In this document: positions 1,193 to 18,807 of the stretch, in pieces
How the letters are laid out: every line of letters begins with the position of its first letter
How positions within the stretch are numbered: the first letter of the stretch is position 1
DNA from: Clostridiales bacterium
GTDB lineage: Bacteria; Bacillota; Clostridia; Oscillospirales; Ruminococcaceae
Direction: 5' to 3'
Length of the DNA stretch: 35,321 nt
Assembly (NCBI GenBank): GCA_012518465.1
Contig: JAAYSD010000113.1
Coordinates: 1 to 35,321 of the forward strand
Program-made: the position numbers and the translations under genes
Notes under the pieces: generated by a model
The model's input: the letters and a program-made list of their open reading frames with translations, nothing else
What the model was told of the DNA's origin: nothing
Databases searched by the model: none

Positions 1193-1273
1193 TTAAGTAA
1201 CAAGTATTATATTTTACTTAAATTATTTTATGATTAATAGTTATTTATAAATAAATTAAGTATTTATACATAT

Positions 1274-1309
1274 AAAAATGCTGAAATCTATTGAAATTTC
1301 AGCATTTTT
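1274..1309 (+). terminator. Intrinsic terminator after first GH5 gene
   Basis: A 14-bp stem (1274-1287 with 1296-1309, core ATGCTGAAAT) closes an 8-nt loop and runs into a T tract. It lies 82 nt after the stop codon and separates the first GH5 gene from the next two. Confidence 0.85.
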
Positions 1310-1376
1310 TTGTTATAGTTAATAATAGTATTAATTTTTGTTAAGTTATAAAAGAATATTTAAGGAGTTTATGGGA

Positions 1377-2624
1377 ATGAAAAAGAAAATCCACACACTT
1401 ACAGCTTTATTTTTATCTTGTGTAATGCTCTTTACATCTTGTGTTAGTGACAATTCCAATACATCTAATTCAACTAATAGTTCTACTTCTACAAAGGATA
1501 CTATGGTTTTTACAACAACCGATACTCAAACAACTGCTTTTAATACAACTACCTCCACTAGCTCCACTACCTCCACAAAAGCAAAAACCTCTGCTTCCGC
1601 TACAACTGAAAAAACATATGTTAATCCTGCTTTCACAAAAGCAAAAACCAATTCAGCAACTAAGAAAAGTACAAAATCCTCTGATAATTCAAGCACCCCA
1701 ACTGATGCAAGCAATTTTGCAAAAACTCATGGAGCTTTGAGCGTTAATGGCACTAATCTTGTTGACAGCAAGGGAAATAAAATTCAGCTTTATGGAATGT
1801 CCACCCACGGTATAGCGTGGTTTCCTCAATATGTAAGCAAGGACACCTTTAAGACCCTTCGTGATGATTGGAATATCAATGCAGTTAGACTTGCCATGTA
1901 TACCGCTGAATACAATGGCTATTCTGAGGGCGGAGGAGATAAGACTTATCTTAAAAATCTTGTTAAAAAAGGTGTTGATGCAGCTACCGAGCTGGGAATG
2001 TACGTTATTATAGACTGGCATATACTAAGTGACCAAGACCCTAATAAGCATAAATCAGATGCAATTGCATTTTTCAATGAAATGGCAAGCCTTTATAAAA
2101 ATCACACAAATGTTATTTACGAAATATGCAATGAGCCAAATGGTTCTGCTACGTGGGATAGTGTTTATTCCTACACTAATGAAGTTATACCCGTTATCAG
2201 AAAACATGATAAGGACGCTGTAATAATTGTAGGCACACCTACATGGAGTCAAGACATTGACAAGGCTCTAGCAAAGCCCTTAAAGTATGATAACATTCTG
2301 TATGCTTTACATTTCTATGCCGCTACTCATACTCAATACTTAAGAGATAGGTTAAAGCAATGCTATGATGCTGGTTTACCTGTTATCATAAGTGAATTTG
2401 GATTAGGCTCAGCCGACGGCAATGGCTCAATAGACTATACTCAATCAAAACTATGGCTGCAAATGCTTGATAAATACAACATTAGCTATTTCGCATGGAA
2501 TATTGCAAATAAAAATGAAACAAGCAGTATTTTACTTCCCTCAACTAATACTGTATCTAACTGGTCAGAAAGTCAATTAAGTGAGTCTGGCAAGTATTTA
2601 AGAAACTGGTTTAGAAATAAATAA
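1377..2624 (+). CDS. GH5 (subfamily 2-like) endoglucanase lipoprotein
   Basis: Predicted endo-beta-1,4-glucanase of 415 residues anchored outside the membrane. I start at the ATG at 1377 because AAGGAG (1362-1367) lies 9 nt upstream; the ATG at 1371 is too close. MKKK, a hydrophobic core and the lipobox LFTSC (lipidated Cys22) form a lipoprotein signal. A Thr/Ser/Lys-rich linker covers about residues 23-115. The GH5 domain follows: Arg171 in NAVRLAMY, the acid/base in YEICNEPNG (Glu253), His312 in ALHFY, and the nucleophile in VIISEFG (Glu340). The end pattern YFAWNIANKNETSS resembles Bacillus-type GH5_2 cellulases. The linker DNA holds a 16-bp direct repeat (1574-1589, 1634-1649). The mannanase gene follows after 12 nt, so the two are probably cotranscribed. 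The product specificity is inferred from family resemblance. Confidence 0.92.
   Translation: MKKKIHTLTALFLSCVMLFTSCVSDNSNTSNSTNSSTSTKDTMVFTTTDTQTTAFNTTTSTSSTTSTKAKTSASATTEKTYVNPAFTKAKTNSATKKSTKSSDNSSTPTDASNFAKTHGALSVNGTNLVDSKGNKIQLYGMSTHGIAWFPQYVSKDTFKTLRDDWNINAVRLAMYTAEYNGYSEGGGDKTYLKNLVKKGVDAATELGMYVIIDWHILSDQDPNKHKSDAIAFFNEMASLYKNHTNVIYEICNEPNGSATWDSVYSYTNEVIPVIRKHDKDAVIIVGTPTWSQDIDKALAKPLKYDNILYALHFYAATHTQYLRDRLKQCYDAGLPVIISEFGLGSADGNGSIDYTQSKLWLQMLDKYNISYFAWNIANKNETSSILLPSTNTVSNWSESQLSESGKYLRNWFRNK
1574..1649 (+). repeat. 16-bp direct repeat in GH5 linker
   Basis: CACAAAAGCAAAAACC occurs at 1574-1589 and again at 1634-1649, in the same reading frame 60 nt apart, inside the Thr/Ser-rich linker of the GH5 lipoprotein. 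Recombination between the copies would remove exactly 20 residues in frame. Confidence 0.7.
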
Positions 2625-2636
2625 AAAGGAGTTATT

Positions 2637-3746
2637 ATGAAAAAAATTGCTGCACTTATTCTATCACTAACACTTGCACTTTCGCTAGTGGGCTGTAATG
2701 ATGGTGACAATTCCTCTGATAAGGAAGAAACAACACCGAAAGCAACACAAAGTGAAATTGCAACTACAACCTTCGACTTTGAAATTCCCCCAGACACTAC
2801 CGAGGCACCCGATATACTTCCTCCTATCGTTGATAAAACCTTTGATAAGGGATTTACTGTTGATGGAAATAACCTTATCGATGCTAACGGAAATCCTTTT
2901 GTTATGCGTGGAGTCAATCACTCCCACACTTGGTTTCAAGATAAGATAAAAACCGTTATTCCTGCTATTGCTGAAACAGGATCTAACACAGTTAGAATCG
3001 TGCTTTCAAATGGCATACAATGGAAGAAAACAGCTCAAAAGGATGTTGAAGATATTATAAAAAGATGTAAGGCATATAAAATGATTGCAGTGCTTGAGGT
3101 TCATGATGCCACAGGTAGAGATGATCCTGAAGAAATTGAAAAAATTGTTGACTATTGGATTGAAATAAAAGACGCACTTATTGGAAATGAAGCCTTTGTA
3201 ATCCTTAATATTGCTAATGAATGGCCAGGCAAAAGTGATAGCGAAATGTGGCGTGACGCTTATGTAAAGGCTATTCCCCGTTTGAGAGATGCAGGAATTA
3301 AAAATACGATTATGGTTGATGCCGGTGGCTGGGGACAATATGCACAAAGCATAGCTGACTATGGAAAAGAAGTTTTTGAATCAGATCCCGACAAAAACAC
3401 CATGTTCTCTGTTCATATGTATGGAACAGCTGGAAATTTTCCAAGAACTATCAGCGACAATCTAAGGAAAATTACCGAGCAAGGCTTGTGTGTGATTGTT
3501 GGTGAATTTGGCTACAAGCATTCCGATGGCAATGTAGATGAAGAATATATTATGAAGTATACAACGGAAAATAACATAGGCTATCTTGGTTGGAGCTGGA
3601 AAGGTAATGGTGGAGGAGTTGAATACCTCGATCTAGCTGAAGATTGGGAGGGAAATACACTTTCAAAGGATTGGGGAGAGGTTTTAATAAACGGTGAAAA
3701 TGGTATTAAACAAACCTCAAAGCTCTGTTCAGTTTTTGACGAATAA
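2637..3746 (+). CDS. GH5 (subfamily 8-like) beta-mannanase lipoprotein
   Basis: Predicted endo-beta-1,4-mannanase, 369 residues, displayed on the cell surface. AAAGGAG (2625-2631) precedes the ATG by 5 nt. The N-terminus is a lipoprotein signal with lipobox LVGC (Cys20), followed by an acidic/Thr-rich spacer to about residue 70. The catalytic domain carries features I recognise from Bacillus GH5_8 mannanases: LEVHDATGRDDP, then NIANEW (acid/base Glu195), MVDAGGWGQ, FSVHMYG (His260), VIVGEFG (nucleophile Glu290) and the signature GWSWKGNGGGVEYLDL. No carbohydrate-binding module or dockerin follows. It sits 12 nt behind the GH5_2-like cellulase, so the pair would attack mixed glucan/mannan plant cell wall. 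GH5_8 assignment is strong; preference for glucomannan or galactomannan cannot be read from sequence. Confidence 0.93.
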   Translation: MKKIAALILSLTLALSLVGCNDGDNSSDKEETTPKATQSEIATTTFDFEIPPDTTEAPDILPPIVDKTFDKGFTVDGNNLIDANGNPFVMRGVNHSHTWFQDKIKTVIPAIAETGSNTVRIVLSNGIQWKKTAQKDVEDIIKRCKAYKMIAVLEVHDATGRDDPEEIEKIVDYWIEIKDALIGNEAFVILNIANEWPGKSDSEMWRDAYVKAIPRLRDAGIKNTIMVDAGGWGQYAQSIADYGKEVFESDPDKNTMFSVHMYGTAGNFPRTISDNLRKITEQGLCVIVGEFGYKHSDGNVDEEYIMKYTTENNIGYLGWSWKGNGGGVEYLDLAEDWEGNTLSKDWGEVLINGENGIKQTSKLCSVFDE

Positions 3747-3927: not shown

Positions 3928-4263
3928 ATGAATTCTCAATTAAAAAGAGGTGTGCTTGAGCTATGTGTACTCTCCATTGTCAAAAATGCTGATTGCTATG
4001 GTTATGAGTTAGTAAACAAGATTTCAGATTTCATGCACATTACGGAAGGCACGGTTTATCCATTGCTAAAGAGATTAAAGGATAATAAGCAAATTCAATC
4101 CTATATTGTTGAGTCGAATGAAGGACCAGCACGAAAATATTATAAAATTACCGAAAATGGCTTGGAAACACAGGAAAAAATGCAAAAGGAGTGGCTGGAT
4201 TTTGTGGAAAATGTAAATAACCTTATAAATAATGAGATGCAAGGGAGGGGAGCGAATGAGTAA
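3928..4263 (+). CDS. PadR-family transcriptional regulator
   Basis: A 111-residue DNA-binding repressor of the short PadR (PadR-s1) type. The winged-helix N-terminus shows LKRGVLELCVLSIV, then YGYELVNKI and the wing/recognition region TEGTVYPLLKRLKD, all diagnostic of PadR. RKYYKITENGLE follows, and a C-terminal helix serves for dimerisation. A strong AAAGGAGG lies 5 nt before the ATG. The stop codon overlaps the next start by 8 nt, so it is translationally coupled to the HAAS membrane protein and the DUF4097 protein. Such operons respond to envelope stress or antimicrobial compounds in other Firmicutes, and the regulator is usually autoregulated. The inducer cannot be inferred here. Confidence 0.93.
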   Translation: MNSQLKRGVLELCVLSIVKNADCYGYELVNKISDFMHITEGTVYPLLKRLKDNKQIQSYIVESNEGPARKYYKITENGLETQEKMQKEWLDFVENVNNLINNEMQGRGANE

Positions 4264-4819
4264 TCCAACTACAAAAAAAGAGTTTATCAGGCAACTTCAC
4301 GAGCAAATGGATATACTCGGTATTAGCTTTGATTCCGATATACTATCGGATTTTGAGCAGCACTTTGAAAGTGGAAAGGAACAAGGTTTAACCGAAGAAG
4401 AAATATGCAATAACCTTGGTGATATAAAGGAAATTGCTCTAGGGTTTTTACCACAAGGGCAAGAACCAATCACGGAAAAACACCATTTACATGGGAAAAA
4501 TACAACTGCATTTGTCTTTTTAATTATAGCTGATGTTTTACTGTTATTCTGGTTAATGTTTGCACTTGGTGCTACTGTTTTTGGATTATGCTTTACACCT
4601 TTAGGCTTACTCATAACTGCTATTGATTTAATCTTCTATTCAAGTGTTATCAATAATGTGCTTTTTTTAATTTTCAATTTAATAATGATTACCGGTGCTA
4701 TAATTTTATCAGTTATTGGTGTAATATATCTAGTCAGATTATTTATTATGCTTTGTAAATATTATATAAACTGGCATTTGCACTTACTAGGCAAAGAAAA
4801 ACTTGAGGTGAAGCTATGA
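4256..4819 (+). CDS. HAAS-domain (DUF1700-like) membrane protein
   Basis: A 187-residue protein. I start at the ATG at 4256 because GGGAGGGGAG precedes it closely and the 8-nt overlap with the padR-like gene is typical coupling; an upstream ATG at 4232 lacks this site. Residues 1-65 are soluble and helical (KEFIRQLHEQM, DFEQHFESGKEQGLTEEEI, NNLGDIKEIA), the pattern of the HAAS/DUF1700 domain that partners PadR regulators. Three hydrophobic segments follow at about residues 83-105, 108-132 and 138-165. The role is thought to be membrane sensing or signalling with the neighbouring PadR and DUF4097 proteins; the mechanism is unproven. The stop overlaps the next start as ATGA. Confidence 0.85.
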   Translation: MSNPTTKKEFIRQLHEQMDILGISFDSDILSDFEQHFESGKEQGLTEEEICNNLGDIKEIALGFLPQGQEPITEKHHLHGKNTTAFVFLIIADVLLLFWLMFALGATVFGLCFTPLGLLITAIDLIFYSSVINNVLFLIFNLIMITGAIILSVIGVIYLVRLFIMLCKYYINWHLHLLGKEKLEVKL

Positions 4820-5766
4820 AAAAAATATCAATAATAGGTCTGTCATTATTTGTTGTTGGATTGATTGGTTCAATTATAACCTTGCAATTTGTAGATAAAA
4901 GCGAGCAATTGATTACAGATAATATTACTATCAGTAATAACTTGTATGATATTAACGATATAGATATTAATTTAGAGTATTTTGATGAAATATATTTAGT
5001 AGCTGAGGAAAGGCAAGATATAAAAATTGAATATAAGGTTTTTAAAGAATCTCATATTCCCTCTATATCCTCTGAAAATAATAATTTAACAGTAAAACAA
5101 GGCGGAACATTTTTCAGCTATTTTAACTCAGGTAGTTTAAAATGGTATTTAAATAATAATGGTAAAACTAGCATTACAATAAATTTACCACAAAAACAAT
5201 ACAATAGGATAAATTTTTCAACTAGTATCGGTGAGGGGAAAATAACCGATATTAACACAAATAGCTTAGTGTTTTTCTCAAATATCGGTAATTTTAATAT
5301 AACAGCAAACTCCAATTTTGTTGATATTGAAAGTGATTTAGGGAGTTTAGAATATACCTCCCTAGCTAAAAGAGGCAGTACATTAGAGGCTGACACTAAT
5401 TCTGGCAGCTTAACTATTAATAATGCCAGCTTTGATGAATTTGATATTAATGCTGATATAGGAGAATTATTCATTAATGGACTTACTGGTAAAGGCAAGA
5501 TAGAAACAAATGTAGGTAGCGTTGACGTTAATTATGCTAAGTGGGATGGTGATTTAGAACTCTCAAACAATATAGGGGATGTTAATATAACCTTGCCAAA
5601 TGGCTCAGGTGCTTATATAGAGTCTGCGAGTGATATTGGAAAAGTGGCGGTACAGCTTAAAGATTTTAATTCTACTATATCCAGTGGCATTTATTCAGTA
5701 AATGGCGATGGAATGCATAAAATAAAGGTTGAAACAGATATAGGAAATGTTAAAATCCGAGATTAA
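4816..5766 (+). CDS. DUF4097 beta-repeat envelope protein
   Basis: A 316-residue protein with an N-terminal membrane anchor (MKKISIIGLSLFVVGLIGS) and an extracytoplasmic body rich in short beta repeats. Repeated motifs such as SIGEGKITDIN, SNIGNFNITAN, ADIGELFINGL, NNIGDVNITLP and TDIGNVKIRD recur about every 20-25 residues. This is the parallel beta-helix pattern of DUF4097 ('adhesin-like') proteins. It overlaps the HAAS gene by 4 nt and completes the PadR-HAAS-DUF4097 operon. Proteins of this type are induced with bacitracin/lantibiotic-type resistance operons in Bacillus relatives, but no biochemical activity is established. The family call is confident; the function is open. Confidence 0.85.
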   Translation: MKKISIIGLSLFVVGLIGSIITLQFVDKSEQLITDNITISNNLYDINDIDINLEYFDEIYLVAEERQDIKIEYKVFKESHIPSISSENNNLTVKQGGTFFSYFNSGSLKWYLNNNGKTSITINLPQKQYNRINFSTSIGEGKITDINTNSLVFFSNIGNFNITANSNFVDIESDLGSLEYTSLAKRGSTLEADTNSGSLTINNASFDEFDINADIGELFINGLTGKGKIETNVGSVDVNYAKWDGDLELSNNIGDVNITLPNGSGAYIESASDIGKVAVQLKDFNSTISSGIYSVNGDGMHKIKVETDIGNVKIRD

Positions 5767-5827: not shown

Positions 5828-7081
5828 TTAGTTAGCAAAGCCCGAACGTTCAATACCTTCTGTAAAATGCTTTTGCAAGAAAATATACATTAGAATAATT
5901 GGTATAATAGCTAGTATACAGCCTGCCTGCATCCATACAAGTACCGAAACCGGTCCGCCGCCCATACCTGTCGGCAGCAGCTCAAGAGGAAACTCTGTAC
6001 CCATTAGCGAAACCTTCATTGATACTGTAATCGTGTTTTGTAAAAACATAGAGCTTTCATAATAATCATTCCAATACCAAACTATTGAGAAAATAAATAC
6101 GGTAAGGAATGAGCTAGCTGCATTTGGTACCATTATTTTAGTAAAAGTCTGAAATGGACCACAACCATCTAAATATGCAGCATCCTCAAGCTCCTTAGGC
6201 AAGCCTCTAAAAAATTGCCTGAACAGTAATATAAATAAGCCTGAGCGAATACCATTACCCATAATCGCTTTAATGTAGAATAGCATTGGCGTATCAGTAA
6301 GTGTTAGTGGCGCTCCATCTAAAGCTGAAAAAATACCTAGTATATCAAAGTTTCTAAAAAGTGAAAATTGAGGCATAATAATTATTTGTATAGGTACAAT
6401 GATTTGTAAAATTACAATACCAAACAAAAGCTTTTTGCCTTTGAAATTGAACCTAGCAAATCCATAGCCCGTCATAGCACAAACTGCAACAGATAATACA
6501 GCCGATACTAAATTGATTGACAACGTATTTCCTACCGCCTGAGCATAGCTCATTGCGTTCCATGCTTCAGAGAAGTTTTCCCATCTAATGGTCTTTGGTA
6601 TCCACATGATTGAAGGGTCACTCATTTCAATCTGCGGCCTAATTGCAACCGAAATCATATATATAATTGGATAAAGTACTACAAAGCACAAACCAAAAAG
6701 TATTAAAAATCTAAATATCGGCCAAACCTTCATACCTATTCTTCTAAAAAACACATATCTATAATGCTTTCTTTCATCAGATGAATAGGATTTAAAATTC
6801 TTTAATATATCAAAATTTGATACATGATATGGATTTTTATTCTGCTTTGATTTTTTTGTTTTCTTTTTTGATTCAACAGCCGATGTTTCCATCACTGTTC
6901 CTTCACCAAAGCTATTTATGTCTGCAATCGCTTTTGCTACACTTTCAGCAGATGCCTTAACCTCACCGTCTGATTTTTCAGCAAAGGGTGAATCCTGCCC
7001 CAGCTCCTCGAATATATCGGAGGAATCCTTAGGCTGAATAATGTCCTTATCTTCCAGACCGTCAAACTTATTATCAGTCAT
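5828..7081 (-). CDS. MalG-type carbohydrate ABC permease with long cytoplasmic tail (second pair)
   Basis: A 417-residue binding-protein-dependent transport inner-membrane subunit, last gene of the operon. About 125 N-terminal residues are hydrophilic and charged (including KKKTKKSKQNKNP near residue 75). Six hydrophobic segments follow. The EAA loop that docks an ABC ATPase reads ELEDAAYLDGCGPF. The C-terminus FTEGIERSGFAN is typical of MalG/LacG permeases (GAxKG-type end). Ordinary family members are about 275-300 residues, so the tail is additional. It is preceded by its MalF-type partner at 12 nt. Substrate unknown; no solute-binding protein is adjacent to this pair. Confidence 0.92.
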   Translation of the reverse strand: MTDNKFDGLEDKDIIQPKDSSDIFEELGQDSPFAEKSDGEVKASAESVAKAIADINSFGEGTVMETSAVESKKKTKKSKQNKNPYHVSNFDILKNFKSYSSDERKHYRYVFFRRIGMKVWPIFRFLILFGLCFVVLYPIIYMISVAIRPQIEMSDPSIMWIPKTIRWENFSEAWNAMSYAQAVGNTLSINLVSAVLSVAVCAMTGYGFARFNFKGKKLLFGIVILQIIVPIQIIIMPQFSLFRNFDILGIFSALDGAPLTLTDTPMLFYIKAIMGNGIRSGLFILLFRQFFRGLPKELEDAAYLDGCGPFQTFTKIMVPNAASSFLTVFIFSIVWYWNDYYESSMFLQNTITVSMKVSLMGTEFPLELLPTGMGGGPVSVLVWMQAGCILAIIPIILMYIFLQKHFTEGIERSGFAN

Positions 7082-7093
7082 TTTTATCCTCCT

Positions 7094-8236
7094 TTACTCT
7101 ACCTCATAGTAAACAAATTTGTTTACTACTGCTGTGACTATTGCAAGCGCCGCCAAAACTATCAAAAAGTATACCCAAGCTAACGCTGCTGCATAACCAT
7201 GTTCCCACGCCTGTGCTCTACCCATTACATATTCCATAACAGGGTTTTGTGGGTCGATAAATGCATCTATTACTGTATAAACGATGTTTGCAAGAATCAT
7301 AGGGCTTATATATGGAAGTGTAACCTTCCAGAAAAACTCCCATGCTGTTGCACCCTCTATCATTGCAGCTTCCTTAGCTGGTCGTGGTATATTCTGCAAT
7401 GCTGCAAGGAATATCAAAATCTGAATACCCGAGTTCCAAACAAGGTTGAAAATATCGCTTGTCATAGTACCGATAAATTCTGTAAACTGCGGACTTATAT
7501 TACTAAGTCCCATAAAGGTCATCAATTCTCCCACAAGGTCCGTCTTAAATAATGCACTAAACTGCTCAGCATCAGCTACACCCTGTGTCGCTATCGCTTC
7601 ACCATTGATAACGGATATAATCGGACCTGTTGCGATAAGCACGGGTAAAAAGAATACGGATCTTACAAAAGTGCGTCCCCTAAATTTTTGATTTAATATA
7701 ACAGCAATAAACAAAGAGAACACTAAAATTAAAATTACCTTAGGTGCTAAATCAGCTAAAGAGCTGGTTAGGGCCTTTATATAATCCGGTTCCTGCGTAA
7801 ATGCTCGCTCAAAGTTTCCAAATCCTATCCACTGTGTGTGCATACCAGCACCCGTCATACCCTTTTTAAGACCAAGCTCATTATCCACAATAGCAGTTTT
7901 ACTAAATGCATAATGAATTGAAGTAATCAAAGGATTGATAAATAACCAAAGCACACCAACAAGCCAAATCGATATAAAACCATATCCATATAACTTTTTC
8001 TTATTTTCATAAGAAATTTTCGATGTTTTTATCTTTTTCTCTTTTCGGCCAGACTTACGGCGAACATCAACTTCCTCTCCTTCTGCTAAAATATGTGCTG
8101 CACTAGCAGTGTTGTGGGCAGAACGATAAACCTTTTTTTCTTTGGAGTCATTAGTCATGTCCTTTTGCTGCAAACTTTCCTGTGCTAAAAGCTCTTTTTC
8201 ATCGCTTTTAACCTGCTTATCCTTTTTTTCGGACAA
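7094..8236 (-). CDS. MalF-type carbohydrate ABC permease with charged tail (second pair)
   Basis: A 380-residue permease subunit. The start is TTG (8236-8234), supported by AAGGAG 9 nt upstream; no ATG fits. Residues 1-85 are highly charged (KKDKQVKSDEKE, RRKSGRKEKKIKTSK) and predicted cytoplasmic. Six membrane segments follow, first at about 88-108. The EAA loop reads PRPAKEAAMIEGATAWEF. It begins 1 nt after the DUF5696 stop codon and is followed after 12 nt by the MalG-type partner, so the pair should form one heterodimer. Its ATPase would have to come from elsewhere, probably the MsmX-like protein at 24473-25612. Family call secure, substrate unknown. Confidence 0.92.
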   Translation of the reverse strand: MSEKKDKQVKSDEKELLAQESLQQKDMTNDSKEKKVYRSAHNTASAAHILAEGEEVDVRRKSGRKEKKIKTSKISYENKKKLYGYGFISIWLVGVLWLFINPLITSIHYAFSKTAIVDNELGLKKGMTGAGMHTQWIGFGNFERAFTQEPDYIKALTSSLADLAPKVILILVFSLFIAVILNQKFRGRTFVRSVFFLPVLIATGPIISVINGEAIATQGVADAEQFSALFKTDLVGELMTFMGLSNISPQFTEFIGTMTSDIFNLVWNSGIQILIFLAALQNIPRPAKEAAMIEGATAWEFFWKVTLPYISPMILANIVYTVIDAFIDPQNPVMEYVMGRAQAWEHGYAAALAWVYFLIVLAALAIVTAVVNKFVYYEVE

Positions 8237-8237
8237 C

Positions 8238-10604
8238 CTACTCAGCTCCTTTCATATTTGTCACACCATAATTAGAAAAATCAATTGTTTCACCGTTTAA
8301 TTCTAAGGTGAGATTTTCTGTATCAATCTTTATAGTCGTGCCATCTTCAAATTCCGTTTCCATGATACTGCGTGAAATCATCTTATGGTCAACAATTTTT
8401 TTATTTATTACGGAACCTATGATGTCCTTAGCCATCTTATACTCATTAGCGGCCATTTCCTTCCAACCGTCAAAGAATGTATAGTAATAATCCTCGTATT
8501 CAGTTGTTGCAAAGGTGTTTGGCTTTTCCTTCATAAATTCATATTCCAAGGCTGTGCCTGTTGAAAGAGATAATAGTAAATGCTTAGCAGCATCTGAGCT
8601 TTCATTTACAGCAGTTGATGACATGGGAATAACTCCATGTAAAGCTATCTGATAAAATGGTATATCATAATCGAACAAATCATAATTACTGCTATATAAA
8701 GGTGAATCCTGAATAAAGGATACATATGGAAGTGCATAATGATTCGCACCCTCTGCCATTATTGAAATGCCATTGTCTTTCAGAGCTTGATAGCTTTCTT
8801 GAAGCATAGAAACAGCGTCTGTACGTGAAACATTTCTGATACCAAAATCGCTGTAAAGCATTGTTGTAGCATTAGCAAGACTTATATTTTGAATATTATT
8901 TTTCTTAAAGCTATTCGCAATATTCTTTACTGTTTCAACATAGAAAGCTGGCGACATAATTGTATGCACTGTTCTAGTTGGATGCTCAGTACCATATGCC
9001 ATTTCAAAAGGAAGTTGCGTTGCATAGCTTTTGCTCAATCTCACTGCTGAATTTGTGGTCTTAGAGTATCCATTTCCACTTCTCTTATATTCTTGAATAT
9101 CCATTTCAGGGAAAAGTGATATGCCATTTGTATTAGCATATTCCAGCAGTTCGTCAAAGTCCTTTTTGCCACCAAGCTTGCTTGAATAGTCAACTTCATC
9201 AGTCATTCGCTCAGTTATGCCCGCTTTATTAAACTCGCTATAATTAACTACCATGTTTTCAACGCCAAGCTGCTTTAATTCCTCAAGCATCTGCTTTGCA
9301 TCTTTATACTTTGTAGCCGGAGTCTGAAGACTTACAGGAAATCCTGCAATACTCTTATCAAGCATCGTACCACCATAGAAAATAAGTGATAATGGTGAGT
9401 CGGACTCAATTTCTTCTATATTTAAATCATTTAACAAATAATCTTGATATTTTAAAGCTACATCAGCATATGAAATTTCATCTTTGTTCTTATCAGAAAT
9501 AGGATAATAACGTACCTTAATCTTTTTAAGGCTGATAGGTCCGGTTTCTTCAGCAGTTAAAGACTCACTCCTAGTACCCATGAAAAAGCTGTCCTTACTC
9601 CTTGTTTGAAATTTAAACCAAGCCATATTATATGAGCTGCTTTTTATTGTAGTTTCACTAACATTAGCATTAATGCTAGCATTTGCATCTCCGCTTTCTA
9701 TAAGTGCTAGAAGTGCATTATCCTGCTTTACAATACCTAGCAGCGGAAGATTAACTGTTTGCGTTTTAGCAGGAGCTCGTACTAATGCAAGATTGGAATC
9801 TCGACCGTAGATTTGCCCCTCATAATTAATATAGTTTTTCTTTTGATTATTAAATTCAATAACTGCACCTGAGCCATCTGGAATTACCATATAACCATCG
9901 TCCTTAGTTGAACCTGCACCAAAAGACATCATTAGATTAATTTCTGAAATAATAGGATTACTATCAGAAAGCCCTAAATTAGTTATATCAGTTTCTGTAA
10001 TTTCATCAGTAGGTATTTCTGCATCAAGATAGTCCTCCTGCAATGTATAATAAACAGGAATCTTTATATCCGTACCTACAAAGTCATAAGTTACTTTAAA
10101 ACCATTGTCAATTTTTTCTATTGACATACCACCTTGTGCAACTGAATTTGTATATGAAAAATACTCATCAGCAGCAAATGTTTTAACAACTAGAGCAGAT
10201 TTTATTTCTTCCTTTCTAGTCTGATTTGATAACTTATCTGAATCAACATCATACGGATAAGACCACCATATATAATCGTTTTTCTTATCCTTAAGAGCAA
10301 TTAAACCTGTTTCCTCAGAAAGATATACAGCTAAATTGCTGTTTTCAGCCATAAGAGTAGTCTTAGCCAAAGCCTCTTCCTCAGTAATAGGTTCTGCTAG
10401 CTCGGCAGAATCATCAGGTGCATCCTGCTGATCTGACTGTGTTTGATCCGTTTCAGTATTATCTTGAACGGTCTGGCTGTTATCAGCATCAGATACATTT
10501 CCCTCTTCCTGCTGAGCTGTATCTGATAAAACGCCCTGCCCTGTCGAAATGAGCATAACGGCAGCTAAAATTCCTGCCATTAACTTTTTTCTTAATTGAA
10601 GCAT
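8238..10604 (-). CDS. DUF5696 secreted protein, possible glycosidase fold
   Basis: A 788-residue exported protein. Residues 1-28 are a signal peptide without a lipobox; 29-75 are a Gln/Asp/Glu-rich low-complexity spacer. Residues about 85-390 look like a beta-sandwich, with the family hallmark IPDGSGAVI at 241-249. Residues about 395-700 alternate helices and strands and resemble a TIM barrel (QLGVENMVVNYSEF, ISLFPEMDIQEY, NGISIMAEGANHY). A short beta domain ends the protein. I recognise DUF5696 from ABC-transporter loci of Paenibacillus and clostridia. Acidic residues in strand-end positions (EMDIQ, EGANHY) suggest a glycoside-hydrolase-like enzyme, but no activity is known to me and this is inference. 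The ribosome binding site is weak (GGTGGTG). It sits between the YIP1 gene and the second permease pair. Confidence 0.85.
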   Translation of the reverse strand: MLQLRKKLMAGILAAVMLISTGQGVLSDTAQQEEGNVSDADNSQTVQDNTETDQTQSDQQDAPDDSAELAEPITEEEALAKTTLMAENSNLAVYLSEETGLIALKDKKNDYIWWSYPYDVDSDKLSNQTRKEEIKSALVVKTFAADEYFSYTNSVAQGGMSIEKIDNGFKVTYDFVGTDIKIPVYYTLQEDYLDAEIPTDEITETDITNLGLSDSNPIISEINLMMSFGAGSTKDDGYMVIPDGSGAVIEFNNQKKNYINYEGQIYGRDSNLALVRAPAKTQTVNLPLLGIVKQDNALLALIESGDANASINANVSETTIKSSSYNMAWFKFQTRSKDSFFMGTRSESLTAEETGPISLKKIKVRYYPISDKNKDEISYADVALKYQDYLLNDLNIEEIESDSPLSLIFYGGTMLDKSIAGFPVSLQTPATKYKDAKQMLEELKQLGVENMVVNYSEFNKAGITERMTDEVDYSSKLGGKKDFDELLEYANTNGISLFPEMDIQEYKRSGNGYSKTTNSAVRLSKSYATQLPFEMAYGTEHPTRTVHTIMSPAFYVETVKNIANSFKKNNIQNISLANATTMLYSDFGIRNVSRTDAVSMLQESYQALKDNGISIMAEGANHYALPYVSFIQDSPLYSSNYDLFDYDIPFYQIALHGVIPMSSTAVNESSDAAKHLLLSLSTGTALEYEFMKEKPNTFATTEYEDYYYTFFDGWKEMAANEYKMAKDIIGSVINKKIVDHKMISRSIMETEFEDGTTIKIDTENLTLELNGETIDFSNYGVTNMKGAE

Positions 10605-10633
10605 CGTTACACCACCATTTTCATTATGTTCGG

Positions 10634-11407
10634 CTATATTTTTGAAAGCTCAAGGCTTTTATTCTCCTTTTTTTGCAAATGTATATCATGCAGCTTGTAT
10701 AATAAATGAATTATAGCTACTACTGCAATAATAGCACCCACGCTTATTAATCCCAATTGCCATGGCTGCATACTTGGAAATCTGTAAAGCAGCTCAGTAA
10801 ATACAGAATAGCCAAATACATACACCTGCTGAAAGAGCATTGCCAACAGTACAAGCAGAATAACAATGATAGCCATGCCAAACGCTGTAAAGAGCATTGC
10901 TAAAATAGTGAGTGGTATTGTATACTGATGTACTGTCCTAATTCCTGAAATCATTAATAATAAGGACCATGCCGTACCAAAAAGATATATAAATGTCAAA
11001 AAAGATTCTTCAGAGCGTGACAGCATGAAACTTATTACAAATCCTAAATACCTTGACCCTACATAAGGCACTAAAGCATATGCCGAAGTAACAAAAACCC
11101 TTTTCATAGTACCTTCACCATTGAACAGAGTACATAACGCCCAGTTTGCTACAACCCATGTCAAAAATAACAAAACCGTCGAGCTGAAATCAGGAATAAC
11201 ATTATAAACCCTCTCATTAAAAACCCTGTGCAAAAATGGCATTTCAGTAGATTCAAGCACTCTGATAACAAACCATAATGCAACAATAATTATTGCATAA
11301 CGCATTTTATATGCTTTTTTCCATCTTAAATCTTCAAAACCTTCAAAAGGGTGTCTTGAAACATAAAAAGGCCATTTCCAATCAGGAACATTTACTTCAT
11401 ATTTCAT
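10634..11407 (-). CDS. YIP1-family membrane protein
   Basis: A 257-residue integral membrane protein. I use the ATG at 11407, 7 nt after AGGGGG and overlapping the previous TGA by one base; a GTG directly upstream is possible. A short cytoplasmic N-terminus (about 40 residues) is followed by five or six hydrophobic segments, including YAIIIVALWFVIRVL, VLLFLTWVVANWALC and LTILAMLFTAFGMAIIVILL. The region around TLFNGEGTMKRVFVTSAYALVPY matches the Yip1 domain pattern, where a polar segment precedes an Ala/Pro-containing helix. Bacterial YIP1 proteins are poorly characterised; in this locus it may support assembly or trafficking of the permeases or of DUF5696. That role is inference from its fixed place in the operon. 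Confidence 0.8.
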   Translation of the reverse strand: MKYEVNVPDWKWPFYVSRHPFEGFEDLRWKKAYKMRYAIIIVALWFVIRVLESTEMPFLHRVFNERVYNVIPDFSSTVLLFLTWVVANWALCTLFNGEGTMKRVFVTSAYALVPYVGSRYLGFVISFMLSRSEESFLTFIYLFGTAWSLLLMISGIRTVHQYTIPLTILAMLFTAFGMAIIVILLVLLAMLFQQVYVFGYSVFTELLYRFPSMQPWQLGLISVGAIIAVVAIIHLLYKLHDIHLQKKENKSLELSKI

Positions 11408-13029
11408 CACGCCGCCCCCTTCTTCTGCTTGAGCTTTTTACTGATTTTGATTACTTTTTTAATTACAATAGGTATTATAATTACTGCTAAAATAATTCCT
11501 AAAATAACACTGAAATTGTTTCTTACATACTCCATTCGGAAATTTCTAAAAGCTTGATTATATCCGCCTCTGCTATTCATATAGAAATAATCCATTGCCT
11601 TATCATATTCGCCTAGGAACAAATAAGCATTTCCTATCGCTACATAAGCAAACCAGTAGTTGTTATCACGACGTAAAACCTCATCCCACAATTCCATAGA
11701 CTCAGTATATTTACCGTCACTATAAAGCTCAATTGCATCATTTACAATAGCTCCAAACTCCGTCTGCTTGAATATTGTGATATTTGCCTTTTCCATATCA
11801 AGCACATAGGATTTATCGCCATATGTTTCCAAAGCCTTAGGAGTAGTAAAAGTACCTTTTTGATTACCTAATCCTCCATAAATATATAACAAAAGGCAAT
11901 CCTGATCATATACAAAAACTCTACCTGTTTGTGCGTCCAAGAGATTTATCAAACCATTTTCACTGATATCTACATCAATAATCTGTGAGCTGTATGTTAC
12001 ATCACGATAACGAACACTGTAAAAATCGCCAAAGGTTGTATCGGATATCCCCATTGATTCAAAAACATTTGTTCCCTTTGGGCTTACCTTTTTCAATACG
12101 TCTATATCGGCACTTTTTACCTCGGTAACCGTGTAGATAAAGTTATCATCATCTATATCAAAATTCGAAAACTCAGCAGATACATTCTTCTTGGACTTTT
12201 GAAGCTGCTCCTCAGTCATGAAAAATTGCCAAACCTTACTAGCTAATACCTCTGCTGTTCTCTTAACCCTATTAGCACCAAAATATCTGTTAAATTCGCC
12301 TGTTTCGGAAAATTCCACAGCTCCCTTAGTAATTGATTTAACATTGGCGTATACATTTTTCGCTCTGTCTACAACTACTTTAGTCGGCTCAAAGGCTACA
12401 TTTTCGTCATAATCCTTTTCATCAGGCCTTATATAAATATACTTAGCTACGAAAATATCATTTCCCTGACTATCTTTTCTCTGATAACCTGCAATAACCC
12501 TGCGGTTTTTACTATCTGCTACATAAAGCATATCGTCCGGAGTCACATACACGCCAGCAGGAATATTAAATCCTTGTGCTGTAATTGCATTGTACTCAAT
12601 TTCATCGATTTCGCCACTGTCAAACCTTTCCTTTTGAGCTGACAGCCAATCACCAACCTCAGATAAATCAACTCTATCAAATACAGCAGTAGCTTTTTCC
12701 ATATCATTATCAATTTTAACGATTCTGCCCTTTGAATAAGTACCGTCATCAAAATTCGTTTCAAACTCTGAATCTGCTACATAGAAATCGCCTTCATCGG
12801 TAGCAAAAATATCTAAAGGAACCTTAAAATCTCCAATCCCTAAATCATTACCCGTTACTTGCCTTTCAGGAACATAACCGGTCTGAGAAGGGATAGCTTC
12901 GTTCCACCAATCGTATAAATAACCGTCATAAGCTTCCTCAGCCAAAGCAGGAACTGCAAACATAGACCCCGCAATAAGTGTCGCCAAGGCAGTGCTTAAA
13001 ATACGTTTTGTTATGCGTATTCTTTGCAA
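11407..13029 (-). CDS. NHL-like beta-propeller/TPR protein with C-terminal membrane anchor
   Basis: A 540-residue envelope protein. I choose the TTG at 13029-13027 because AAAGGGTGA lies 5 nt upstream and it yields a complete signal peptide ending PALAEE; upstream in-frame codons overlap the preceding permease gene. Residues about 50-420 contain repeats such as PLDIFATDEGDFYVADSE, TPDDMLYVADSKNRRV and TPKALETYGDKSYVLDMEKA, typical of NHL-type beta-propellers. Residues about 420-500 hold TPR-like helices (GKYTESMELWDEVL, AYVAIGNAYLFLGEYDKAMDYF). A single membrane span at about 506-526 and a Lys-rich tail end the protein. The topology places the propeller and TPR outside the cell, suited to binding glycan or partner proteins. 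Function unknown; it may organise the SBP and DUF5696 proteins at the membrane (inference). Confidence 0.8.
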   Translation of the reverse strand: MQRIRITKRILSTALATLIAGSMFAVPALAEEAYDGYLYDWWNEAIPSQTGYVPERQVTGNDLGIGDFKVPLDIFATDEGDFYVADSEFETNFDDGTYSKGRIVKIDNDMEKATAVFDRVDLSEVGDWLSAQKERFDSGEIDEIEYNAITAQGFNIPAGVYVTPDDMLYVADSKNRRVIAGYQRKDSQGNDIFVAKYIYIRPDEKDYDENVAFEPTKVVVDRAKNVYANVKSITKGAVEFSETGEFNRYFGANRVKRTAEVLASKVWQFFMTEEQLQKSKKNVSAEFSNFDIDDDNFIYTVTEVKSADIDVLKKVSPKGTNVFESMGISDTTFGDFYSVRYRDVTYSSQIIDVDISENGLINLLDAQTGRVFVYDQDCLLLYIYGGLGNQKGTFTTPKALETYGDKSYVLDMEKANITIFKQTEFGAIVNDAIELYSDGKYTESMELWDEVLRRDNNYWFAYVAIGNAYLFLGEYDKAMDYFYMNSRGGYNQAFRNFRMEYVRNNFSVILGIILAVIIIPIVIKKVIKISKKLKQKKGAA

Positions 13030-13051
13030 AATAATCACCCTTTCTTTTGGC

Positions 13052-13936
13052 CTAGTCCTTAATTCCTGATTGAGCCATTGTTTCGATAATATTACTTTGA
13101 GCAATAAGGAATAAAACAATTGGCGGTACCATCATGATTACAACAGTAGCTGCAGCCACACCCGCACGCTTGATTACCTCAGTAGCTATCTGCTGTAATA
13201 CTGCCGGAATCGGCTTTAGCTGTTCTGAATAAATAAAAGCATATCCGTTTATCTGCCATGCGCCTTGGAAAGCAAAAATCATAAGCGTTAGCCACGCTGG
13301 CTTAACATTCGGCATAACGATTTGCCAGCATATTCTTATATGACTGGCTCCGTCAAGCTTTGCCGCCTCAATCATAGCATCATGTATTTGCCCCATGAAC
13401 TGTATCATTAAGAATAGTCCCATTGCTGTTGATATTGCCGGTAAGATAACAGCAGCCAAAGTATCGATTAGATTTAAGCTTGCCATTACAAGATACTGCA
13501 TTATAAACAATACCTGACTAGTAAAAAGCAAAGCAAGTGTAATTAATTTATTGAAAAATTTAACACCGGGGAACTTTACCTTTGCCAAAGCATAAGCTGC
13601 TGATGATGCAAATACAAGCTGTAAAACTGTAACTGAAACTGCTATTACAACAGAGTTAAAAGCATATCTAGAAAACGGAACCCACTGGCTGCCTACAAGC
13701 TTCATCATATCTGTGTAGTTTTGGTCAGTAGGATTTACCGCATAAAGCTTAGGAGGAAATTCAAATAATTCCTGAGGCGGTTTTATCGATTGAATAACCG
13801 ATAAGTATATCGGAAAAATCATAAATACGCCTAGTAAAATAAGCACAAGAAACAAGAAGAATGCGCCAGCCCTTGAGCCGCCATATGACTTTCTATGCTT
13901 ACGATCTCTGTTTTTAAATTTACTGAAAATAGACAC
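13052..13936 (-). CDS. MalG-type carbohydrate ABC permease (first pair)
   Basis: A 294-residue permease subunit with about six membrane segments and EAA loop MIEAAKLDGASHIRICW. The start is GTG (13936-13934); AAAGGATGG lies upstream with a rather long spacer, and no Met codon occurs before the first membrane span. A basic N-terminus (KFKNRDRKHRKSYGG) precedes the first span. It follows its MalF-type partner by 31 nt and belongs to the same transcript as the large solute-binding fusion, so the three probably form one importer. The ATPase is missing from the operon in MsmX-like form. Substrate unknown, probably an oligosaccharide. Confidence 0.92.
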   Translation of the reverse strand: MSIFSKFKNRDRKHRKSYGGSRAGAFFLFLVLILLGVFMIFPIYLSVIQSIKPPQELFEFPPKLYAVNPTDQNYTDMMKLVGSQWVPFSRYAFNSVVIAVSVTVLQLVFASSAAYALAKVKFPGVKFFNKLITLALLFTSQVLFIMQYLVMASLNLIDTLAAVILPAISTAMGLFLMIQFMGQIHDAMIEAAKLDGASHIRICWQIVMPNVKPAWLTLMIFAFQGAWQINGYAFIYSEQLKPIPAVLQQIATEVIKRAGVAAATVVIMMVPPIVLFLIAQSNIIETMAQSGIKD

Positions 13937-13968
13937 GTTTATCTACCATCCTTTCTAGAGATTATTCG

Positions 13969-14907
13969 TTAATCGTTTAAGTATCGACCTAGAATACGCC
14001 TGATGAGTGAATTAGCAAACAGCATTACAATAAATAATATAAAGCATATCGCAGATGCATACCCCATCTCAAAACGAATATATCCATAGTCATAAGCATG
14101 TGTCATTATCGTATGTGCAGCATAGTCAGTACTTGGGAAAGCAGTAAGGAATCTTCCTATATCACCAGCAGTAAATGAGCCTGTAATAGTCATTACTGCC
14201 GCAAACAGCAGCTGAGGCCCCATGCTGGGAACAGTAATATAAAGCAGCTCCTGTGTCCTATTTTTAATACCATCAATAGCGCCCGCCTCGTAGTAAGAAC
14301 GGTCTATACCCTGAAGTCCCGCACGGATAGCAAGGAAGCCAGCACCTAAGCTCATCCAAATCTGCACTATTATAACCGATGTTAATATGTAGTTAGCATC
14401 AGTCAGCCACTGAATAGGACCGTTTATAATACCTAACTGTATAAGCCATGAGTTTAATATACCATAAGTATCACCAGAGAAAATTAGCTGCCATGTTGTA
14501 TAAATATTTCCCGCTAGTGTAGGAGCATAAAATACAAAGGTAAACAATGTCTTTAAAAATTTAGGCATCTCATTTATTGCCCATGCTAGTAAAAAGCACA
14601 TCATATAACCAACCGGACCTGTAATAAAGGCAAATATCATGGTATTTTTAATAGCTATTAAAAATACTTCATCCTGTAAAAATAAAGTGTAAAAGTTATC
14701 CATTCCTACCCATTTAGGAAATTGAACCATGTCAAAGTTTGTAAAACCTATGGGCAGTGAAATTAAAATAGGTACAACTAAAAATACAATAAACAGTAAG
14801 AAAAACGGTGCAATAAGTAAATATACACTAGCGTTTTTCTTGATTTCACGAAGCGTATATTTGAAGCGACTATCTTCAATATACTTTGTCTTTTCTTTTG
14901 AAAGCAA
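13969..14907 (-). CDS. MalF-type carbohydrate ABC permease (first pair)
   Basis: A 312-residue permease subunit. The start is TTG (14907-14905) with a strong AGGAGG 7 nt upstream; no ATG is available before the first span. About six hydrophobic segments are present, first YLLIAPFFLLFIVFLVVPIL. The EAA loop reads SYYEAGAIDGIKNRTQE. It lies 82 nt downstream of the solute-binding fusion gene, and that gap holds a strong hairpin (14934-14959). With the MalG-type protein encoded next it should form the translocation pore for the substrate delivered by the fusion protein. Confidence 0.92.
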   Translation of the reverse strand: MLSKEKTKYIEDSRFKYTLREIKKNASVYLLIAPFFLLFIVFLVVPILISLPIGFTNFDMVQFPKWVGMDNFYTLFLQDEVFLIAIKNTMIFAFITGPVGYMMCFLLAWAINEMPKFLKTLFTFVFYAPTLAGNIYTTWQLIFSGDTYGILNSWLIQLGIINGPIQWLTDANYILTSVIIVQIWMSLGAGFLAIRAGLQGIDRSYYEAGAIDGIKNRTQELLYITVPSMGPQLLFAAVMTITGSFTAGDIGRFLTAFPSTDYAAHTIMTHAYDYGYIRFEMGYASAICFILFIVMLFANSLIRRILGRYLND

Positions 14908-14933
14908 AACGATTCCTCCTAAGCTTTATGGAT

Positions 14934-14959
14934 TTCTGTCACGCAAAAGCGTGACAGAA
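14934..14959 (-). promoter_or_regulatory. Intergenic stem-loop between SBP and permease genes
   Basis: A perfect 11-bp stem (TTCTGTCACGC at 14934-14944 with its complement at 14949-14959) closes a 4-nt loop. No T run follows in the direction of transcription, so it is not a good terminator. Such hairpins after solute-binding-protein genes often protect the upstream message from 3' decay, giving more binding protein than permease. That role is inferred. Confidence 0.65.
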
Positions 14960-14989
14960 TATCTTGATTCTAGTAAATCAGTCAATCCA

Positions 14990-17965
14990 CTAATCCATGC
15001 CCAATCCTTGGCGTTTTCTAATAATTTCATTATTAATATCTCGATTATATTTAAGGATTGAATAATTCAGATAGTCATGGTCATTTACAACGGATCTGAA
15101 AATATTATTAACATTTCTTGTAACAACATATGAAGCAGGAATTATAGGAACCTCCTTCAGCTGTGCCATTTGTGCAGAAATTTTTTCGTACTCAGCAGTT
15201 GACCATGGCAATTCCTTTAAAGCCTCAAGATTAGCTGTGTCATAACGTCCCAAGGGGCCCATTACAGCCTCTTGCGCTCTACCATAATCCACCTGAGTCT
15301 GCGTTTCAGTAAACCATTTTAAGAAAGTCCATGCAGCACGCTTATTAGCAACCTTTTCAAAAATAACAATACCAGTTGAAGTAGAGTTTGTAAGGTGGCT
15401 TATAGAACCGTCTGCCTGCTCAGTACCAGGAATAAGTGTAAAGTCCCAAAGTCCTCTAATTTCAGGGGCTGCAACAGTCAGCTGATTGTAGAAAGTATAG
15501 GGCTGAATAACAATCGGCATTTCACCTGTTCTAAATCTTGAGAAAGCATCATACTGCTGATCAAAGCTATAATTAACATAAAAGTCTGTCCAGTATTCAA
15601 ACTTTTCATTTGCTTCAGGGGTGTCGAATGTTGTCTGCTTTAGATCCTCTGTATAAATCTCTTGTCCTGACTGAAGCATTAATGCAATTAATGTATGTCC
15701 TGCATCAAAAATCTGTGAAGTAACTGTACCCGGTAAAATCAAGCCTACCTGTAAATGCTTAGATTGAATTTTTGACAGCATATTTACAAGTTCGTCCCAT
15801 GTTTCAGGAGGGCTATCAAAGCCTAGATCCTCAAGCACATCCTTACGATAGAACATCATAGGGAAAGTCTGCTGTGATGGCAGGCCATAAACACCATCGT
15901 TAAATTCATAGTGAGTCAAAACATCTTCATTAAATCTAGTTGCCACATCGTCAAAGTCTGAAAACTCACTTTTCAGATCAACTAACAATCCTCTCGCCGC
16001 AAGGTTAATCGGATAGTCGCCGCCTAAGAACATGGCAATCTCAGGCCCTTTTCCTGCAAGGCTCGCTTCAATTACCGAACCGATTACAAGGCTTACATTT
16101 ACATTTATGTTTTCTTGTGGAGTAAAAGATGAAGTAACTAGCTCATTAACTATTGAAGCTTGGTCTCTGGAAGTACCAACCCAAACATTAAGTGCCTGTG
16201 TGGTAGAATCAGAAATTGAGCTATAATCTTCAAAAAATGAGCCTATAAATGCTCTAAATCCAAAAGAAAAAGATTCAAAGAAATTGTATTTTTTATTTCT
16301 ATAAGAATCATGAACCGTCTTAACTTCTAAAAAGTCCATTTCCAAAGGCTGATTTCTAAAATCTCTCATCCATGCAGAAACTGAAGAAATCTGACTTTTT
16401 AAAACATCAAGCATTTTAGGAATTTGCCTTGGCTTATCAACTGCTCGCTGCAAGACCGTTGCCAAAGCATTAAGCTCGGAGCCCTCTGAGCTTTCGCCAC
16501 CTGCTATCCTATCTATTTCTGCCTTTTCTTCTTTTAATCTATCAATCATTTCCTGCAATACAGATTGCAATTCAGGAATAGAAACATGCACATTATAGTC
16601 AGTATATTCATCAGGTGTAGGGCCTGTGATCATAAGAATTCTTATATAATAGTTGTTTAATATATAAATAATATTATCAAGCCTTTGCATTACCTCGCCA
16701 ATTTCACCGGGAATAGCCTCAAGGGTGATAGTATGCTTTTCACCGCCTGTTAAATATATATAATAAGGCTTGCCATTCTCATCACCAATTTCTTTTTCAT
16801 ACCACTTACCATTGTATTCAAATTTAATCTGGTTAAAAGCTTCATTTGGTACTTCGCCATCAACGTAAAGTCTGCGGTTTGTATAAAGTCCCCTCATTGT
16901 GCTTTGATTTACACGCATATTAATGCTGTAATATCCATCATTAGGAACAGTAACCTCCCAAGTTATGCTCTGACCCGCCTTATTCCATGTATCCTGTCCA
17001 ACAGTATTATATCTCTGCTTAACAGGGTGTGATGGGCTAGCCATATAATCAGTTCTATCCTTAGTAGCATAAAGAGTAGCAGAATTTTTGTATAAAGAAT
17101 TTTCAGCCTCAATTAAAATAGCTTTATTATCAGGAAGTGCAGGAGTATTTTCCAGTTCCTCCTCAGTCGGCGCTACATACTCATCAAGCTCTTCTTGATT
17201 ATAAAACCTAAAGCTATCAAAAATTAAATTCATTTTAACACCAGTGAGCGTAATAGTATGCTCACCTTTTGTAAGATAAAATGACAAAGGCTCGTTGTAA
17301 ACCCCGTCCTTATCCTTGATAGAATAACTCATCCACGCATCATATGCAACAACCTGTGGGCGTGACTGATTGTCCTTCTTATCCGTTGTGATTTCAGTAG
17401 CGTCCTTAAACAATCGATCAATCTGAATCTGTGCCACTTGATCATAGGGTGCTTCACCATCAAGAAGAATACCTAATTCAATTTCATTTGCCCTGCCAGA
17501 TATAGGAAAATAATTCATTTCAAGCTTATAAAGACCTTCAGTCTTTACATTAAACTTAAAAGTAACCTCGCCTGTATCATTTGACCAGCGTAAAACATTA
17601 TCTCTGCCCTCAAATGAACCTATTTCAACCTCAGCCTCATCATTAGCTTCACCCACATTAGCAGGAATAACTATTTCTTCCATTGGTTCAGCCTTATCAG
17701 AATACTTTTCTATGTATTGGTAATACGGATTACCCTTTACCATAGATTCCAAAGCCTCTTCTAAAGCTAGCTCAATATCTGCTTCATCCAGTTCTATCGG
17801 CTCTTCAACCTCCTCGGTATTTTGAGCAGCATCTTCCGTTGCTTGTGTTTGTTCCTCAGCCTGTGCAACAGCCGAAATAGGAGAAACCACCATGCTAAAA
17901 GCACATACTCCTCCTAAAATCGCAGATATTATCCTTAAAAATTTTGATTTTTCTAAGCTGGTCAC
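14990..17965 (-). CDS. Carbohydrate-binding/extracellular solute-binding fusion protein
   Basis: A 991-residue exported protein, GTG start at 17965 with AGAAAGGTGG 9 nt upstream. Residues 1-36 form a signal peptide ending AVAQA; no lipobox is present. Residues 37-95 are acidic and helical. Two beta-sandwich segments follow (about 95-257 and 283-436), each with CBM6/CBM35-like features: TGEVTFKFNVKTEGLYKLEM, LTKGEHTITLTGV and DSFRFYN in the first; AENSLYK, VPNDGYYSINMRV and LTGGEKHTITLEAI in the second. A helical spacer spans about 460-545. Residues about 590-991 are a family 1 solute-binding domain (PMMFYRKDVLEDLGFDSPPETWDEL, STGIVIFEKVANKRAAWTFLKWF). Ordinary sugar-binding proteins are 420-550 residues, so this is a real fusion. 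It should capture or hold a polysaccharide and pass oligomers to the permeases encoded next. Confidence 0.88.
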   Translation of the reverse strand: MTSLEKSKFLRIISAILGGVCAFSMVVSPISAVAQAEEQTQATEDAAQNTEEVEEPIELDEADIELALEEALESMVKGNPYYQYIEKYSDKAEPMEEIVIPANVGEANDEAEVEIGSFEGRDNVLRWSNDTGEVTFKFNVKTEGLYKLEMNYFPISGRANEIELGILLDGEAPYDQVAQIQIDRLFKDATEITTDKKDNQSRPQVVAYDAWMSYSIKDKDGVYNEPLSFYLTKGEHTITLTGVKMNLIFDSFRFYNQEELDEYVAPTEEELENTPALPDNKAILIEAENSLYKNSATLYATKDRTDYMASPSHPVKQRYNTVGQDTWNKAGQSITWEVTVPNDGYYSINMRVNQSTMRGLYTNRRLYVDGEVPNEAFNQIKFEYNGKWYEKEIGDENGKPYYIYLTGGEKHTITLEAIPGEIGEVMQRLDNIIYILNNYYIRILMITGPTPDEYTDYNVHVSIPELQSVLQEMIDRLKEEKAEIDRIAGGESSEGSELNALATVLQRAVDKPRQIPKMLDVLKSQISSVSAWMRDFRNQPLEMDFLEVKTVHDSYRNKKYNFFESFSFGFRAFIGSFFEDYSSISDSTTQALNVWVGTSRDQASIVNELVTSSFTPQENINVNVSLVIGSVIEASLAGKGPEIAMFLGGDYPINLAARGLLVDLKSEFSDFDDVATRFNEDVLTHYEFNDGVYGLPSQQTFPMMFYRKDVLEDLGFDSPPETWDELVNMLSKIQSKHLQVGLILPGTVTSQIFDAGHTLIALMLQSGQEIYTEDLKQTTFDTPEANEKFEYWTDFYVNYSFDQQYDAFSRFRTGEMPIVIQPYTFYNQLTVAAPEIRGLWDFTLIPGTEQADGSISHLTNSTSTGIVIFEKVANKRAAWTFLKWFTETQTQVDYGRAQEAVMGPLGRYDTANLEALKELPWSTAEYEKISAQMAQLKEVPIIPASYVVTRNVNNIFRSVVNDHDYLNYSILKYNRDINNEIIRKRQGLGMD

Positions 17966-18767: not shown

Positions 18768-18807
18768 ATTCACCACTCTTTTTTGCTAACGATTACATTG
18801 AAAAATT

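Follow-up and report, generated by a model that had tools for sequence, protein, structure and literature searches.

The window, that is the complete stretch of 35,321 nucleotides analysed here (contig JAAYSD010000113.1 of a Clostridiales bacterium assigned to the Ruminococcaceae), carries on its minus strand eight genes in the order SBP, permease F1, permease G1, NHL-TPR protein, Yip1 protein, DUF5696 protein, permease F2 and permease G2 (Table 1). The coordinates given for the DUF5696 gene by an earlier sequence-only reading were right and its strand is minus, the plus-strand frame at these positions being full of stops. The encoded protein matches PF18952 (DUF5696) with residues 162-779 (E=5.1e-155, 517.9 bits against a gathering cut-off of 25.6) and covers positions 4-612 of the 612 in the profile. 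This was the sole match in a Pfam scan at E<=0.01, in which neither Glyco_hydro_129 nor Glyco_hydro_101 appeared. Export, as had been surmised, is well founded, with an N-terminal hydrophobic segment that recurs in 102 of 106 DUF5696 relatives and is followed by a disordered linker (residues about 22-70, with low pLDDT at 22-61 in the AlphaFold2 model). The IPDGSGAVI motif is likewise found at the residues where it had been reported.

Table 1. Positions of the eight-gene cassette and of the features of the DUF5696 protein in the window.
Feature	Position	Strand	Remarks
Cassette gene 1, 991-aa SBP	14990..17965	(-)	two N-terminal beta-sandwich (CBM35-like) domains, helical linker, C-terminal SBP domain
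Cassette gene 2, MalF-type permease F1	13969..14907	(-)	PF00528, 1e-10
Cassette gene 3, MalG-type permease G1	13052..13936	(-)	PF00528, 7e-9
Cassette gene 4, NHL-repeat (propeller-like) and TPR protein	11407..13119	(-)	C-terminal transmembrane segment
Cassette gene 5, Yip1-domain polytopic membrane protein	10634..11410	(-)	PF04893, 1.4e-8
Cassette gene 6, DUF5696 protein	8238..10604	(-)	788 aa; GH129/GH101-like, three domains, probably non-catalytic
Cassette gene 7, permease F2	7094..8236	(-)	one base past DUF5696; PF00528, 4.8e-5, under the Pfam cut-off; conserved place
Cassette gene 8, permease G2	5828..7081	(-)	PF00528, 4.1e-16
N-terminal export signal or membrane anchor, residues 1-27	10524..10604	(-)	hydrophobic segment 8-27; helix 2-22 in the AlphaFold2 model
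N-terminal beta-sandwich, residues about 83-393	9426..10358	(-)	predicted strands; aligns with the N-terminal domain of 5opq
IPDGSGAVI motif, residues 241-249	9858..9884	(-)	Asp at 243 in 103/106 members; Gly at 246 in all
TIM barrel, residues about 404-700	8505..9395	(-)	predicted alternating strands and helices; Foldseek matches to GH129/GH101 barrels
A577 codon	8874..8876	(-)	aligns with D435, the nucleophile of NagBb (GH129); an acid in 13/106 members
D586 codon	8847..8849	(-)	one well-conserved barrel acid, 99/106
R594 codon	8823..8825	(-)	105/106; common to GH129 (14/14)
E618 codon	8751..8753	(-)	aligns with E478, taken as second catalytic acid of NagBb; D/E in 63/106
C-terminal beta domain, residues about 737-770	8295..8396	(-)	AlphaFold2 model; second stretch matched to 5opq

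The DUF5696 gene had been described as lying among sugar permeases, and indeed four MalF/MalG-type permease genes and an SBP gene flank it. In the 991-aa SBP, residues 305-405 resemble the CBM35 part of a CITase (E=1.6e-8), and its SBP domain is of the oligosaccharide type, with Lin1841 as best match (3.7e-29) and CbpB also found; beta-1,2-oligoglucan and cellodextrin binders are the closest to this part of the protein. The bound at 13119 of the NHL-TPR reading frame is mechanical, and translation probably starts at a codon further in. The cassette, which spans positions 5828 to 17965, encodes two MalFG-type permease pairs but lacks an ATPase gene.

Relatives were gathered from genomes of the same family and phylum and from genome contigs, the latter providing 80 loci in which gene order was followed. 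Of the 58 loci that were testable, i.e. belonged to relatives with enough contig, 56 have all eight genes in an unchanged order on a single strand; the gap between DUF5696 and F2 has a median of 2 bases. No other gene accompanies DUF5696 as constantly as that for the NHL-TPR protein: among 20 loci of distant genomes, which mostly belong to other families of the phylum, every one has an NHL match together with DUF5696, and most contain the entire cassette. The Yip1 gene is missing from some lineages, and one distant group possesses only NHL-DUF5696-F2-G2, without Yip1 or the first half. DUF5696 is thus genetically linked to MalFG-type permeases and an SBP. One cassette genome (L153) has Omp85/POTRA genes nearby and probably comes from a member of the phylum that possesses an outer membrane. 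Genes for two LolD/MacB-like ATPases (18054-19503) lie immediately upstream of the cassette in the window; they were rejected as part of the core since they accompany the cassette in about 25 of the 80 loci and in no distant locus. Upstream of these follows a minus-strand open reading frame of 348 aa without Pfam match (20203-21249).

An alignment of 106 DUF5696 members sharing less than 80% identity served as input for AlphaFold2 and yielded a model with a pLDDT of 91.8 and a pTM of 0.90. In a Foldseek search against the PDB the top match was DagB (5opq; E=2.6e-30, TMt 0.68), followed by the GH129 enzyme NagBb (E=2.6e-29, TMt up to 0.74), by GH101 structures (E about 4e-20 to about 1e-19) and then by GH36, GH31 and GH97. 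Profile searches agree with the structural matches. While a single DUF5696 sequence gave zero matches in a PDB search, the 106-sequence profile found 5opq (9e-10) and NagBb (1.7e-5) among the PDB sequences, with no direct match to GH101, and comparison by hhalign with a profile of 14 GH129-like proteins resulted in a probability of 99.95% (E=6.8e-37). Profile matches to designed PPR and alpha-solenoid proteins were discarded because no individual repeat was significant, and a viral structure library did not contain a full-length match to the model. Taken together, the predicted fold and the remote homology seen by the profiles identify DUF5696 as a relative by descent of the GH129/GH101 group that has the same fold as NagBb, DagB and GH101. 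The sequence-only reading, which had asked for a structure prediction and a search for glycoside hydrolase matches, was therefore right in its guess of a glycosidase-like plan, with GH129 as the closest family; of its two-half layout both the beta-sandwich and the TIM barrel stand, and a third, C-terminal beta domain had been missed.

The gathering cut-off of PF18952 (25.6 bits) also lets in proteins of a different kind. Three weak "members" of about 640 aa (L028, L029 and L030), scoring 60-76 bits, in fact belong with NagBb (E about 1e-224) as GH129-like proteins and became a positive control, so that annotation at this threshold gives the DUF5696 label to proteins that are likely real enzymes. 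In Pfam, the GH129-like proteins of related genomes give weak GH101/GH129 matches. The control set comprises 14 such proteins, in all of which the motifs YLDVF and SSEE are conserved, with aspartate at the nucleophile site and glutamate at the second site in 14 out of 14.

Using the profile of these 14 sequences, hhalign mapped NagBb D435, at the end of barrel strand 4, and E478, on strand 5, onto residues 577 and 618 of the DUF5696 protein; an early run against three sequences, in which strand 4 was a few residues off, is superseded by this result. E478 is the residue we take to be the second catalytic acid of NagBb, going by the conserved motif. D435 is the sole catalytic residue of NagBb that is shared by DagB, where mutation of the equivalent Asp486 results in an inactive enzyme (PMC5698469). 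Among the 106 DUF5696 members, position 577 is occupied by G (42), N (15), S (12), D (10), A (9) and others, and position 618 by D (40), E (23), S (11), N (11), Q (7), T (5) and others, G included. Acids are present at both sites together in only 5 of the 106. In one unrealigned hhalign variant the nucleophile site shifts to N578, and if the nucleophile is allowed at either 577 or 578 it is paired with an acid at 618 in 17 of the 106. With respect to variability (entropy) among barrel positions, residues 577 and 618 rank at percentiles 72 and 66, their GH129 counterparts at 0 and 0. Both sites vary already in the 16 closest sequences, where 577 reads AENNDGANNGNDKSGS and 618 reads EDQQQSSQESEQEDES.

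A conserved pair of barrel carboxylates was not found anywhere among the 106 diverse members, neither at 577 and 618 nor elsewhere, and the alignment does not bear out the acidic residues that had been assigned to the strand ends as a conserved feature. The earlier proposal of a new enzyme had named the lack of a conserved carboxylate pair, or of a barrel fold, as refuting it; the pair is absent, so that catalysis is not supported, whereas the barrel fold itself is present. Judged from the alignment, the GH129-type catalytic pair is lost at the level of the family and the fold is kept.

That DUF5696 is still a glycosidase, with E618 or D586 as general acid and the nucleophile replaced by the neighbouring group of the sugar or by another acid, is in our estimate unlikely. 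It possesses the complete GH129/GH101 architecture, its position 618 is acidic in most members and D586 is very widely kept, and even in DagB the second catalytic residue is already displaced relative to NagBb (PMC5698469). On the other hand, the remainder of the family, closest relatives included, has S, N, Q, T or G at 618, and D586 aligns with a non-nucleophile aspartate of GH129 in the loop after strand 4 and lacks a barrel partner acid of equal conservation, D645 and D/E647 being conserved to 85-89%. Activity by way of a substrate-assisted mechanism, or of one with displaced residues, may nevertheless occur here, because E618 is retained in the 788-aa protein and half of the pair could still act, or in single members, because 17 of the 106 combine an acid at 577 or 578 with one at 618.

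Since the pair is not kept and the gene has a constant place in a sugar-uptake gene set, the protein is probably a docking part of an importer rather than a new enzyme. The reading that we favour, and hold to be somewhat more probable than not, is that DUF5696, a relative by descent of the GH129/GH101 group, serves an oligosaccharide ABC importer as a tethered ectodomain subunit without catalysis, with an old pocket that is lectin-like. The importer role is the most likely one, and gene order suggests placement beside the permeases. DUF5696 would remain anchored on the outer side of the membrane, close to F2/G2 and to the NHL protein, where it would bind or present glycan; together with the CBM35-like/SBP fusion it would hold or feed the glycan chain. 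Within the membrane, the NHL-TPR protein and Yip1 may organise the complex, and the two MalFG-type permease pairs would import the sugar, powered by an ATPase encoded elsewhere. The former active-site pocket would act as a lectin-like binding site with a lining that depends on the glycan. As the positions of the old active site are highly variable, such a site is probably ligand-specific.

That the protein binds no sugar and instead helps to assemble or stabilise the permeases or the NHL/Yip1 complex appears quite unlikely. Such a role would account for the constant linkage with the NHL protein and the permeases, the residues retained in common with GH129 (Y386, R594 and H656) may be structural, and there is precedent in rBAT and 4F2hc, whose alpha-amylase-like ectodomains mainly serve transporter stability and trafficking (PMC8537225). 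A changing ligand is, however, suggested by the variable pocket positions and by the CAZyme-rich surroundings of paralogous cassettes, which neighbour genes for GH26 with CBM27/CBM35, pectate lyase with GH106, GH3 with a GDSL esterase, GH35, GH31 and extra SBPs. In view of these varied neighbours the cassette follows glycan use, but not the use of one single glycan. The GH5 genes that the sequence-only reading had noted in the same window are present (three genes, 152-3746), yet a GH5-linked enzyme of a polysaccharide utilisation locus is very improbable, as they run on the other strand, are separated from the cassette by two further genes and lack any homologue in the flanking sequence of up to 10 kb covered around 80 DUF5696 relatives; the association is not conserved, the genes are thus incidental and were rejected as support for function. 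The plus strand also encodes a HAAS-domain and DUF4097 Toastrack pair (4232-5766), which is situated between these GH5 genes and the cassette.

Neither the fold nor the concept of a pseudo-glycosidase is new. In the literature searched, which was mostly without subscription papers, no publication was found on DUF5696 or PF18952 by name, on a link between DUF5696 and GH129 or on the cassette. DUF5696, a domain of unknown function widespread in Ruminococcus-type bacteria of rumen and gut, can hereby be given a fold and an ancestry as well as a role open to testing, and a conserved uptake cassette is exposed beside genes for the degradation of mannan, pectin and other glycans. If our reading is true, annotation of DUF5696 as a glycosidase would be wrong and a retired glycosidase would serve as part of a bacterial transporter.

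Among the closest known systems is DagB (ZGAL_3152), a GH129-like alpha-1,3-(3,6-anhydro)-D-galactosidase which is the top match by Foldseek and by profile and has the same three-domain plan, namely a sandwich (35-299), a barrel (300-620) and an Ig-like domain (621-693) (PMC5698469). DagB requires Asp486, Glu517, Glu531 and Asp202, whereas in DUF5696 the Asp486 position is not a conserved acid and the column aligned near Asp202 is mostly Gln or Gly. NagBb (5wzn), a GH129 alpha-N-acetylgalactosaminidase, resembles DUF5696 in fold (TMt 0.74) and in the positions of Y386, R594 and H656; it differs in that the D435 position is replaced and the E478 position not conserved in DUF5696, which has lost all but a few of the polar residues that are invariant in GH129. 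The GH101 endo-alpha-N-acetylgalactosaminidases (3ecq, 2zxq) match in fold but are much larger multidomain proteins with catalytic D764 and E796 according to the mutant entries 5a58/5a59. The likeness to rBAT and 4F2hc is one of working principle: these animal proteins derive from alpha-amylase (GH13), partner with SLC7 transporters and are not claimed as homologues, but they would share with DUF5696 a membrane-tethered, glycosidase-like ectodomain in the service of a transporter. It is conceivable, albeit doubtful, that the cassette represents a new kind of carbohydrate importer in Bacillota, in which two MalFG pairs, a CBM35-like/SBP fusion, an NHL-TPR protein and Yip1 form one complex with a retired GH129-type barrel, the latter being an ectodomain that is obligatory and presents the glycan; bacteria would then have a counterpart of the fake glucosidase subunits found in animal amino-acid transporters.
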